Part shown: positions 4,616 through 9,161 of the stretch, in pieces
How the letters are laid out: each line of letters starts with the position of its first letter
Numbering within the stretch: position 1 is the stretch's first letter
From: Pseudothermotoga thermarum DSM 5069
Lineage (GTDB): Bacteria; Thermotogota; Thermotogae; Thermotogales; DSM-5069
NCBI RefSeq assembly: GCF_000217815.1
Contig: NC_015707.1
Coordinates: 558,001 to 622,000, forward strand
DNA length: 64,000 nt
Direction of reading: 5' to 3'
Position numbers and translations under genes: made by a program
Notes under the pieces: model-generated
Seen by the model: the letters and a program-made list of their open reading frames with translations, nothing else
Database searches by the model: none
Told to the model about the DNA's origin: nothing

Positions 4616-5923
4616 ATGGAAGTGAAACTTAAAGGAACGAAATTGGAAAGTTTGATAAACCTATTTTCGTTGCTTAACGTCGGTGAGTACAAAAGTTTTG
4701 TTCTACACAGCCTTCATGTGGCGAAAATTTCTTCGCAAATTGTCGATAGATTGATGAAGGAGATTGACACAGATGTAGTTTACATATTGGGTTTGTTTCA
4801 CGATATTGGTTTGGTTTTCAAGGCTTCATTGGAAAACTACGAATTGTTCGAAGACATGTTTCCAAAAATAGCGGATCTTGAAAGAATCGTCTTGACATTT
4901 GATAAGGCTAATCAGCACTCAAAGATTTCATATGGATGTGTTCAAAGATTTCCGTTTCTGAGTAACAACGAAATCGTTAAATCGGCGCTTTATCATCATG
5001 TTCCGATTGATAAAATACCAGAAAGTGAGAAAATAGCGTTGGTGTCCAACGCTATGTTGGCAGCAGATGTACTTTCGAGGTTGTTTTTGAAGCGCCAGAT
5101 TGAATTTCCAGATGAAGAGTTTCTGAAAGAATCCATGGATTTTCTTGACAAAAGCCCAGCGCTGCATCCAGAGGTAAGTCGCGTTTTGAAAGAAATTTTG
5201 AAAGACCCAAGCGTTTTAAGTCAATTGTTTGACGATGAAAGTCATTTTTGCTCTAAGAAAGACTTGTACATCGATGATGTTTTGCACTTTGCAGCGATTT
5301 TTTCGGCTTTACTTGATTTTCGTAGCCCATATACAAGAAGTCACACTTTCTTGGTGGACTACGTGGTCGAGAAACTCGCTTGTGAGATTTTTAAGGGCGA
5401 ATTCGATGTGAATTTTCTAAAAGTTGTTGCATTATTTCACGATATTGGTAAGATAAAGATTCCACTTCAAATACTTCACAAGCATGGCAGGCTCAACGAA
5501 TACGAAATGGCTGTAATGAAAACACACGTTGTGGAAACAAAATTGATGCTCACGAAAGCTTCGCTCGAAAAATACGCCGATCTTGCTGGTTCACACCACG
5601 AGAGGCTTGATGGGTCTGGTTATCCATTGAAACTCACTGAAAAGCAGCTGTCCATTTATTCGAGGATACTTCAGGTTGCGGACGTTTTTGCGGCGTTAAC
5701 CGAGAAAAGACCTTACAGAGATGCACTTGAGCCTAAGGAAGCCATTGAAGTTGTGCGCGAAGAAGTTGAATCAGGCAAACTTGATGACTATGTTTTTGAA
5801 AAACTCGAGCAGCTTGTGAAAAACAACCTTGAATTACCTACTCAAAGAAATATCATGGAAAATTTGCTCGGTGTTGAAAGTGTCGATCAAATAGTTGTTG
5901 TGGACGCCAACTTGGTGGTGTGA
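4616..5923 (+). CDS. Tandem HD / HD-GYP domain phosphodiesterase
   Basis: Predicted cytosolic metal-dependent phosphohydrolase, probably a cyclic-di-GMP (or related cyclic dinucleotide) phosphodiesterase. The 435-residue protein has two HD-type domains. The N-terminal one (residues ~20-180) shows SFVLHSLHVAKI, LFHDIG and YHH. The C-terminal one (~210-400) is a full HD-GYP with FHDIGKI, the following histidines, HHERLDGSGYP and VADVFAALTEKRPYR. No membrane segment or receiver domain is visible, so input probably comes from the N-terminal HD module or a partner. It is first in an operon with a radical SAM protein and a heme-sensor chemoreceptor (stop overlaps the next start as GTGA). Substrate is inferred from the GYP signature only. 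Confidence 0.85.
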   Translation: MEVKLKGTKLESLINLFSLLNVGEYKSFVLHSLHVAKISSQIVDRLMKEIDTDVVYILGLFHDIGLVFKASLENYELFEDMFPKIADLERIVLTFDKANQHSKISYGCVQRFPFLSNNEIVKSALYHHVPIDKIPESEKIALVSNAMLAADVLSRLFLKRQIEFPDEEFLKESMDFLDKSPALHPEVSRVLKEILKDPSVLSQLFDDESHFCSKKDLYIDDVLHFAAIFSALLDFRSPYTRSHTFLVDYVVEKLACEIFKGEFDVNFLKVVALFHDIGKIKIPLQILHKHGRLNEYEMAVMKTHVVETKLMLTKASLEKYADLAGSHHERLDGSGYPLKLTEKQLSIYSRILQVADVFAALTEKRPYRDALEPKEAIEVVREEVESGKLDDYVFEKLEQLVKNNLELPTQRNIMENLLGVESVDQIVVVDANLVV

Positions 5924-6828
5924 TACATTTGTTGAGATACAACAAACTGAGCGATCATCTGAAAAAGCGATACGGTGCGAAAGTTCACAGGCTTGTCATA
6001 GATGCTGGATTTACCTGTCCAAACAGGGAAAGGAATAGTCCGTGCATTTTTTGTGATCCAACTGGGAGTGGGTTCAACGCCTTACATGGTTTGCCCATTA
6101 GAGAGCAGGTTATCCGCCAACGTGAATGGGCAAGGAAAAAATATGGTGCGGAGAAATTCATAGCTTACTTTCAGGCTTTCACCAACACGTACGCTCCTGT
6201 TGAGGTTCTAAGGGAAAGGTATTCCGAGGCTTTGATAGACGATACAATAGTCGAACTTGATGTTTCAACAAGACCAGATTGCGTACCTGAAGAGGTTCTT
6301 GAACTTCTTGAAAGCTTTAAATCCAAAGTCAACGTGACTGTGGAATTTGGAATTCAAACGATAAATTCCAGAACTTTGAGAATTTTACGTAGAGGGCACG
6401 GTGTTGCTGAATTCATAGACGCGGTTTTGAGGTCAAAAAGGCATAACCTTGAGGTCGTCGCACATGTAATTGTCGATTTGCCATGGGATGATTTAGAAGA
6501 TGTCGTCGATACTGCAAGAACTTTGTCTGCCTTGAAAGTGGACGGAGTGAAGATGCATTCTCTTTACGTTGTTAAGGATACTCCTTTGGAAGAAATGATC
6601 AAAGAAGGTACGGTGAAACTTCTAAGCTTTGAGGAGTATTTGGAAAGAGTTATAGCTTTTATAGAGAACCTATCAACTGAAATTGTCATTCACAGACTTG
6701 TTTCAGATCCACCAATCGGAATGACAGTGTTTGCAAATTGGGGTAAGAACAAAAGCGAGATCGTTTCTGTGATAGAAAAAGAATTGGAAAAACGCGACAC
6801 GTGGCAAGGGAAAAAATGGGATGCATAA
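5920..6828 (+). CDS. Radical SAM protein, YhcC/TIGR01212-like
   Basis: Radical SAM family protein of the YhcC type, whose substrate is not established. The 302-residue sequence has the N-terminal pattern [19 protein letters not shown]...[10 protein letters not shown] followed by a cluster of cysteines C-x7-C-x2-C ([13 protein letters not shown]) that would hold the [4Fe-4S] centre. A TIM-barrel segment with [15 protein letters not shown] and VEFGIQTIN follows. Start is GTG at 5920, overlapping the preceding TGA by four bases, which points to translational coupling. Its gene also overlaps the region upstream of the H-NOX receptor. The link to the signalling genes around it is positional only. 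Confidence 0.82.
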
Positions 6829-6842
6829 AAGGAGGTATGGAT

Positions 6843-8663
6843 ATGAAAGGTTTTGTGGTAAACGTATGGTTTCAAACTTGGTCGAAGATGTTTGGAAAAG
6901 ATTTTGTCGACAAAATCAAGGCAAAATATGGTATTTCACCAGACCATGTGTACAGCCCAATTGATGATGTTCCAGACGATTTGCCGTTGTCGATTTCTCG
7001 GGATATAGCGGCCGCAAAAAACATGACTTTCGATGATCTTTGGTATCAAACGGGAAAACAAAATCTGTTCACCTTCTTTGAGAATTATCCAGACTTTTTC
7101 AAAAAGCCAAGCTTTATGTCGTTCATGGCCGCGATGGATAGCGTCCACCGTGTTTTGACAAGAAAAATACAAGGCGCAAGACCACCAAGGGTGTTCTTCA
7201 GGATGATATCCGATAGAAAAGCTATAGTTAGATATCAATCGAAGAGAAATTTCAAAAAGTATTTCCTGGGGCTTATGGAAAGTGCATCGGAATTTTTCAA
7301 AGATCCCATCAAATACAGAATTCTTGCCGATGGTAGCGAGAATGGATACAACTATCTTGAGGTTGAAGTAGAAGCCACCAAACCATATGGATTTTTCGAC
7401 AAGATTCGCTCGTTTGCGCTACTTGGCTTTGGTGTTGTGAAAAATTTAGTTTCAGTTTACGTGTTTTTGGTACCTTTGTACACCTTTGTGGTCAGTTTTT
7501 TGGTTGGGAAATTTCTACCAATTGATCTACTTTTCAAATCACTTATAACTGCCGGATTCGTTTCTGGGTTACTTTATTTCACAACCGGCGGATTGAAGAA
7601 GGGTTTTGCGGGAATCAAGAGATTTGCAAAGAACATGAGTGAAAAGAACTTTGATGAACCAGTTGCTTTGGAAGGGTTGAAAGAGTTTAAGGAAATATCC
7701 GAACAGATGAACAACGCTGTTGACCAGCTGAAAGAAGTTCTTCTTGGTATATCCGGTGATATCCAAGAGATGAGCTTGTATTCGCAGAAAGTCATTGCTG
7801 CAGTCAACTCAATGAGGGAACAACTCGACACCATGAACTCACTTTCAAGTGAAATTGCGAACACAGCCGTTCAAATAAGCAATGATACCGAAAGGATTTC
7901 TAACGCTGTCACTTCCAACGTTGAAACGATCACCTCGATCATGAAGGAACAAACCGAGATTGTTAAATCCCTAAACGATGCGGTAGTATCGATTGTTGAG
8001 TCTGCCAACAACGTGGAAAATTCAGCCGATGGAATTGTCAAGATGAGCCAAAGATTTGCCGAACTTGTAGAACTCGGTAAAAACTTGCAGCAGCAAGCCT
8101 CCACGATAATGGAAGTCGCCACAACTGTTTCGAGCATAGCCGAGCAGACCAACTTGCTTGCCTTGAACGCGGCGATTGAAGCTGCCAGGAGTGGCGAAGC
8201 GGGAAGAGGTTTTGCAGTTGTGGCTGACGAAATAAGAAAACTTGCCGAAGAAAGCAGAGCCTCGGCCGCAAAGATTTCCGACTTTTTAAAATCTATAACG
8301 ATTGGTATCGAGAATCTCAGCAAGAGCATTCAAGCTGAATTCAACGAGATGAAACAGCAATCGCAGCTTCTTCTTGAAAGTTCGGCGAGAAACAAACAGT
8401 CGAGCGACCTTATATCAGGTATTTCGAAGAGACTGAGCCAGCTTATCGATACTTTGAACATGCAAGCTGAAAAACTCAACGACATAACCAGCAGCATACA
8501 GAACCTTCTTGCCATAAGTGAAGAGAGCTCTGCCACAGCAGAGGAAATCAGCTCTTCGATACAAAACTTCTTTACGCAGCTTAGGGTTGTTTTGGACAAC
8601 GTGAACGAAACGATCAGGCTTTTGGACATTGTAAGAATGAATTTCGAGGGGGTCAAGCTGTAG
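6843..8663 (+). CDS. Methyl-accepting chemotaxis protein with N-terminal H-NOX heme sensor
   Basis: Membrane chemoreceptor predicted to sense a gas through heme. Residues 1-~185 are an H-NOX domain. Compared from memory with the Caldanaerobacter (Thermoanaerobacter) tengcongensis H-NOX, it aligns without gaps through ~residue 144. It keeps the proximal heme ligand His102 (in MDSVHRVLT), the YxSxR motif at 131-135 (YQSKR) and the O2-binding pocket residues Trp9, Asn74 and Tyr140. Two membrane segments follow (~200-222 and ~226-247), then a HAMP-like linker and a coiled-coil signalling domain with the conserved hairpin tip ([19 protein letters not shown], then [15 protein letters not shown]). 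Start: ATG 6843, six bases after GGAGGT. The ATG at 6837 abuts the RBS and is unlikely. Product 606 residues. The topology puts both sensor and signalling domains in the cytoplasm. Confidence 0.93.
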
Positions 8664-9161
8664 TTGAGGTTGGCAATAACGGGTAGACCAGGGGTTGGAA
8701 AGACTACTCTTTGCGAAAAGATTTGTGAAAGACTCAGAGAAAAAATCCCTATATCAGGTTTTGTAACAAAAGAAGTGAGGGAGAAAGGCAAAAGGATTGG
8801 CTTTAAGGCTTTCGACCTTTCCACTGGAAAAACAGTTTGGATTTCGAAAGTTGGGGAAGGTCAACCAAAAGTTGGTAAATACGTTGTTTTGGTGGATGAA
8901 TTTGAGGAATTTTTGAAAAAACTGGATTGGGACGGAAAACTCGTCGTTATCGACGAAATAGGACCAATGGAACTCAAAAGTGCGGTTTTTTCGCAGTTGA
9001 TCGAAAAGCTTTTGTCACATGAAGATTTGCTTTTTGTGGTACATCAAACCCTTTCGCATCCACTGGTTGAAAGGATAAAAAAGCATTTCAAACTATTCGT
9101 TGTAACAGAGCAAAACAGAGATGCTTTGGTTGAAGAAATTTGCAGGATATTCGCAAAATAA
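8664..9161 (+). CDS. THEP1-type nucleoside-triphosphatase
   Basis: Small P-loop NTPase of the THEP1 family (EC 3.6.1.15 activity is reported for the family). Physiological role is unclear. The 165-residue protein begins RLAITGRPGVGKTTL (Walker A GRPGVGKT), followed by SGFVTKEVRE and the Walker B LVVIDEIGPMELKS, which is a hallmark of the family. Start is the TTG at 8664, directly after the TAG of the chemoreceptor gene, with GAGGGGG upstream. It is the last gene of the operon and is followed by a strong terminator. Its association with the H-NOX receptor may be incidental. Confidence 0.85.
   Translation: MRLAITGRPGVGKTTLCEKICERLREKIPISGFVTKEVREKGKRIGFKAFDLSTGKTVWISKVGEGQPKVGKYVVLVDEFEEFLKKLDWDGKLVVIDEIGPMELKSAVFSQLIEKLLSHEDLLFVVHQTLSHPLVERIKKHFKLFVVTEQNRDALVEEICRIFAK

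Follow-up and report, generated by a model that had tools for sequence, protein, structure and literature searches.

A predicted heme-dependent H-NOX oxygen chemoreceptor in Pseudothermotoga thermarum and its phylum-wide relatives, whose heme presumably comes from outside the cell

Does the chemoreceptor encoded at positions 6843 to 8663 of this stretch of the Pseudothermotoga thermarum chromosome (64,000 nucleotides, hereafter the window) read O2 through a heme and, if it does, where would its host obtain that heme? We propose, with a probability of about 0.68, that it is a heme H-NOX O2 chemoreceptor which steers the cell via CheA/CheW and whose heme is probably of external origin. The features of the gene on which this proposal builds are the following.

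6830..6835, + strand: ribosome-binding site AGGAGG (read in the sequence)
6843..8663, + strand: H-NOX methyl-accepting chemotaxis protein (MCP), 606 amino acids plus stop (list of open reading frames, Pfam HNOB and MCPsignal, family-conserved M1-K2 start)
6843..7400, + strand: H-NOX (HNOB) sensor domain, residues 1-186 (Pfam, 1u4h alignment, model, structural superposition)
6867..6869, + strand: codon of Trp9, distal pocket (sequence, 1u4h alignment, invariance)
7062..7064, + strand: codon of Asn74, distal pocket (sequence, 1u4h alignment, invariance)
7146..7148, + strand: codon of His102, proximal heme ligand (1u4h alignment; invariant)
7185..7187, + strand: codon of Pro115, proximal residue that in the reference protein is linked to distortion of the heme (sequence, 1u4h alignment, invariance)
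7233..7247, + strand: heme-propionate motif Y131-x-S133-x-R135 (sequence, 1u4h alignment, invariance)
7260..7262, + strand: codon of Tyr140, which in the reference protein donates a hydrogen bond to bound O2 (sequence, 1u4h alignment, invariance)
7446..7592, + strand: two membrane helices, about residues 202-224 and 229-250 (hydropathy, full-length model)
8043..8507, + strand: MCP signalling domain, residues 401-555 (Pfam MCPsignal, E 1.1e-30)

The reading frame opens with an ATG at 6843 and closes with a stop codon at 8661-8663, and the HNOB profile (PF07700) is matched by residues 2-159 over its positions 1-162 of 163 (E 1.4e-39). Hydropathy peaks within about residues 190-231, and a full-length model (pLDDT 82, pTM 0.52) places the H-NOX domain ahead of two helices, at 202-224 and from 229, which run on into a long helical coiled coil. 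Because the loop between these helices comprises only a few residues, we take the H-NOX sensor to be cytoplasmic, and the model is consistent with a membrane-bound receptor whose sensor faces the cell interior. Membrane-bound and MCP-fused is also the form in which the O2-binding H-NOX chemoreceptors of obligate anaerobes occur.

A sequence-only reading of this DNA had proposed an H-NOX chemoreceptor with about 144 residues that align without gaps to the Caldanaerobacter (C.) tengcongensis H-NOX and that keep His102, Trp9, Asn74, Tyr140 and YxSxR. All of this holds: in a phmmer alignment the ungapped match to 1u4h, the C. tengcongensis protein, extends over residues 1-181 (E 4e-35), W9, N74, H102, P115, Y131, S133, R135 and Y140 are each identical to 1u4h, and the identity of the receptor is borne out by sequence, model and phylum-wide invariance alike. 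The domain had been located correctly and needs to be lengthened, its end having been set at 7275, since the ungapped match reaches about 7385 and the domain itself about 7400. All eight pocket residues belong to the 22 invariant columns found among 36 homologues from Thermotogota, whose identity to the domain in the window is 32-67%, a coincidence with a probability of ~1e-8 if eight named positions fell at random into 22 invariant of 186 columns, and all eight are also kept in a clostridial homologue from Acetoanaerobium. A model of residues 1-186 (m0810faa3f8b4; built from the 36 Thermotogota sequences; mean pLDDT 91) answers the call for structure modelling in the same way, in that it has the H-NOX fold and superposes on the O2-complex crystal structure of C. 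tengcongensis H-NOX; with VIA-align it scores Z 27.1 against 3tf0 and Z 26.9 against 1u4h (rmsd 1.4-1.5 A, 186 residues), and lower against the H-NOX domains of Nostoc (about 21), Shewanella (about 20) and guanylate cyclase (11.5-19).

With respect to the recognized subclasses, the proximal His and YxSxR place the domain in the H-NOX/HNOB family, and the distal Tyr in company with Trp9 and Asn74 places it among the O2-binding H-NOX chemoreceptors. It departs from the NO-specific H-NOX proteins, which have no distal hydrogen-bond donor, in carrying Tyr140, and from the Cys/Zn redox H-NOX proteins, which have three or four zinc-site cysteines, in that the whole receptor contains no cysteine at all (cysteines are absent from 37 of 45 H-NOX domains of the phylum, and the remainder have one). 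The assignment to the O2-pocket family is correct and ordinary, and the domain is predicted to bind heme.

The mechanism that we envisage begins with an H-NOX domain that would hold ferrous heme on His102 and would stabilise bound O2 by Tyr140 inside the Trp9/Asn74/Tyr140 network, a hydrogen-bond triad described in the literature. The ensuing conformational change would pass through the membrane helices and the coiled coil to CheA/CheW, the output of which would then guide swimming relative to O2, with a heme that is probably taken up from outside. That the receptor carries heme in the cell, that O2 is its signal and that it acts on swimming is inferred. Distal-Tyr, membrane-bound, MCP-fused H-NOX proteins of obligate anaerobes have been assigned to O2 sensing (PMC8738867), so that an O2 chemoreceptor role is supported here and is already established for the H-NOX-MCP class; our literature search found neither spectra nor behaviour for any Thermotogota member. 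It had also been suggested that the protein is an aerotactic repellent receptor. O2 sensing is indeed favoured by the pocket, by the neighbours of relatives and by the literature, but "repellent" has no basis in the sequence, which does not tell attraction from repulsion.

The pocket by itself does not prove an O2 signal, because the H-NOX of Clostridium botulinum has the same closest distal residues as that of C. subterraneus and yet binds ligands differently (PMC7356049). The C. botulinum protein is described as a femtomolar NO sensor in work cited by PMC9814294, and the receptor in the window could conceivably serve as an NO chemoreceptor too: the affinity of heme for NO far exceeds that for O2, and the cells would then avoid NO or nitrosative stress. 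Consistent with this, the window genome encodes a hybrid cluster protein, as do 79 of the 103 Thermotogota genomes, and the HcpR regulon of Thermotogales is predicted to answer nitrogen oxides (PMC1274295); the hybrid cluster protein is too widespread to discriminate between NO and O2. Against it, the distal Tyr, Trp and Asn are invariant, whereas NO-specific H-NOX proteins exclude O2 and lack the Tyr (PMC8738867), and what adjoins the receptor gene in nine relatives is O2 and superoxide defence, with no NO-handling gene among the annotated neighbours. We therefore regard NO as an unlikely signal.

These nine loci (L087-L090, L092-L095 and L097) all belong to family f10 and span the genera g29, g31, g33, g34 and g36. 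In each of them genes for rubrerythrin and superoxide reductase come after the receptor gene in the same orientation, and wherever the flanking sequence extends far enough, in eight loci, ClpB comes next on the opposite strand. The rubrerythrin/superoxide reductase pair is also present about 4 kb from the receptor in two f1g3 genomes. Since most Thermotogota genomes hold a single superoxide reductase gene, its adjacency to the receptor is unlikely to have arisen by chance, with the proviso that the nine genomes are related and thus non-independent. Moreover, part of this synteny may be inherited inertia, because three f10 genomes without HNOB (G036, G037 and G051) keep the rubrerythrin-superoxide reductase-ClpB block. 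On gene order, the f10 neighbourhood nevertheless favours O2 over NO as the signal and provides genomic support for it that is independent of the pocket; no paper naming H-NOX and rubrerythrin together was found in the literature searched. At the window locus an O2-defence gene is absent beside the receptor.

HNOB is present in 46 of 103 Thermotogota genomes, nearly always as an H-NOX-MCP fusion of about 600 amino acids, and every one of these carriers has CheW, the split being 46 of 86 genomes with CheW versus 0 of 17 without (Fisher p 1.7e-5, uncorrected for phylogeny). The window genome, with three CheW-domain matches and about a dozen MCP genes, has the host chemotaxis pathway that such a receptor needs. 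The H-NOX gene tree groups mostly by family, with members from f3, f5 and f11 partly nested among other families, suggesting long residence of the gene in the phylum with some transfer and loss. A scan of contigs returned a single relative, 67% identical, and an uncultured Pseudothermotoga is the closest relative that bears a name; earlier work has touched briefly on H-NOX in Thermotogae (PMC9510103). Genome G046 encodes two H-NOX chemoreceptors (L005 and L047), the second of them divergent (32% identical to the window domain) with a full O2 pocket. Another locus, L014 on a 5-kb contig (G004:C269), encodes a 180-amino-acid frame whose H-NOX domain has F140 and L9, unlike all other members in the phylum; it was left out as a probable member of a different H-NOX subfamily or a contaminant.

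The genes around the receptor in the window raise a further alternative.

4616..5923, + strand: HD-GYP protein bearing a second domain, HD/HDOD-like, at its N-terminus; its gene recurs as the partner upstream of the receptor (motifs, neighbouring loci)
5920..6828, + strand: MnmL/YtqA-family radical SAM protein, encoded between the genes for the HD-GYP protein and the receptor (TIGR01212, 353 bits, above cut-off)
8664-9161: NTPase gene, directly after the receptor gene

The four genes stand head to tail, and no overlap or gap between them exceeds 14 bases, the radical SAM gene ending 14 bases before the receptor start; this gene is likely an operon neighbour and has no known part in the receptor system. 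In ten further f1, f3 and f5 loci (including L072-L080), the wider surroundings of which differ, the gene directly upstream of the receptor, and on its strand, encodes the same kind of HD-GYP. The motifs of this c-di-GMP phosphodiesterase family, HDIGK and HHERLDGSGYP, are intact in the window, as are HDIGK and HHExxDGxGYP in most other copies (three miss one strict pattern). A different HD-GYP, along with an adenosine-specific kinase, precedes the receptor in 7 of 7 f10g32 loci, and a GGDEF protein is encoded directly upstream in several f2g5/g6 loci. It is thus conceivable that the receptor and the upstream HD-GYP act chiefly in a c-di-GMP circuit, which would govern attachment and not the direction of swimming. 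Adjacent genes need not encode proteins that are physically coupled, however, the partner enzyme varies by lineage, the MCP signalling tip is kept intact and HNOB is found only alongside CheW, all of which makes this arrangement rather improbable.

The O2 account requires a heme, and its supply is, along with the gene neighbours, what stands out beyond the ordinary family assignment. Ferrochelatase was detected in 0 of 103 Thermotogota genomes by a model that detects it in 8 of 14 control genomes, and AhbD reached its cut-off of 500 bits in 0 of 103; none of the 46 HNOB carriers thus has either enzyme by these measures. AhbD matches in 102 genomes fall below the cut-off and were discarded as generic radical SAM proteins. 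Just four genomes encode ALAD, and the same four encode porphobilinogen deaminase: G078-G080, which have HNOB, and G015, which does not, so that 3 of 46 carriers encode them. The window genome lacks ferrochelatase, ALAD and porphobilinogen deaminase, and this is not an assembly gap, because the genome is a single contig of 2,039,943 bases and 99.99% complete. The radical SAM gene at 5920-6828 was considered as a heme enzyme and ruled out, as it belongs to MnmL/YtqA at 353 bits and its HemZ, HemW and HutW matches are weak. Cytochrome bd oxidase exceeds its cut-off in four genomes, none of which has HNOB. In G015, ALAD, porphobilinogen deaminase and AhbD-like radical SAM genes are clustered (G015:C56:21733-27410; L049, L051, L071), an arrangement unique among the surveyed Thermotogota and a possible siroheme-route heme pathway; its AhbD-like match, 355 bits and beside ALAD, is the sole one that looks real. 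Ferrochelatase also went undetected in the one clostridial record checked, that of Acetoanaerobium noterae (NZ_CP154629.1, L056), a 2.63-Mb sequence labelled as a plasmid that encodes an H-NOX-MCP with the full pocket.

An apparent inability to make heme could have two consequences. First, the receptor might work without it, either by sensing redox state or by binding a different cofactor, and the V. cholerae H-NOX can indeed respond to oxidation without heme (PMC7108781). That mechanism requires three or four zinc-site cysteines (PMC7108781), which the window protein lacks, and heme-free redox sensing was rejected on this account; in addition, pocket residues that matter solely to heme and its ligand are invariant, which renders heme-free function of any kind highly improbable despite the missing ferrochelatase, ALAD and porphobilinogen deaminase. 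Second, the heme could be scavenged, as follows from the failure to find a route for making it, barring an unrecognised pathway, and the heme of Thermotogota H-NOX receptors thus presumably comes from outside. One might then speculate that the receptor reads two inputs, exogenous heme setting the number of receptors that are armed and O2 setting what the armed ones report; we hold this to be doubtful. If it were true, motility would depend on heme leaked by neighbouring organisms. What is new here is the invariance of the whole O2 pocket throughout a phylum whose carriers all lack a recognisable means of completing heme, and the origin of the heme, together with sensor function in its absence, is a directly testable question.

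Taken together, these findings place the window protein alongside several known systems. The cell probably has both a heme and a non-heme O2 receptor, judging from a tight cluster elsewhere in the same genome (G000:C1:1594829-1598142; L119:1330-4643) that encodes a flavodiiron protein, the only superoxide reductase of the genome, a soluble MCP-signal protein of 280 amino acids and an ODP protein matching oxygen-binding di-iron proteins in the PDB (1.9e-120). The ODP/MCP pair reportedly works as an O2 chemoreceptor in Treponema denticola. ODP/MCP systems, of T. maritima as well as of Treponema denticola, likewise join a chemoreceptor to an O2-binding protein in an anaerobe, but differ in that the sensor is a non-heme di-iron center on a separate protein and the receptor is soluble.

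The closest counterpart is the H-NOX of Caldanaerobacter subterraneus tengcongensis (1u4h, 3tf0), which has the same fold, heme ligand, distal triad, Pro115 and YxSxR and is likewise fused to an MCP in a thermophilic anaerobe. The window protein differs from it in being only about one third identical and in residing in the phylum Thermotogota; the apparent lack of heme synthesis is a result for the Thermotogota carriers tested. The Clostridium botulinum H-NOX (SONO) also comes from an anaerobe and has Tyr as the closest distal residue, yet titles cited in PMC9814294 describe it as sensing NO and as forming a less stable oxy complex. Finally, the NO-specific H-NOX proteins of Shewanella and Vibrio and that of soluble guanylate cyclase share the fold, the proximal His and YxSxR, but exclude O2, are without the distal Tyr and act via kinases or cyclases (PMC8738867), and their structural Z against the window model is correspondingly lower, from 11.5 to about 20.
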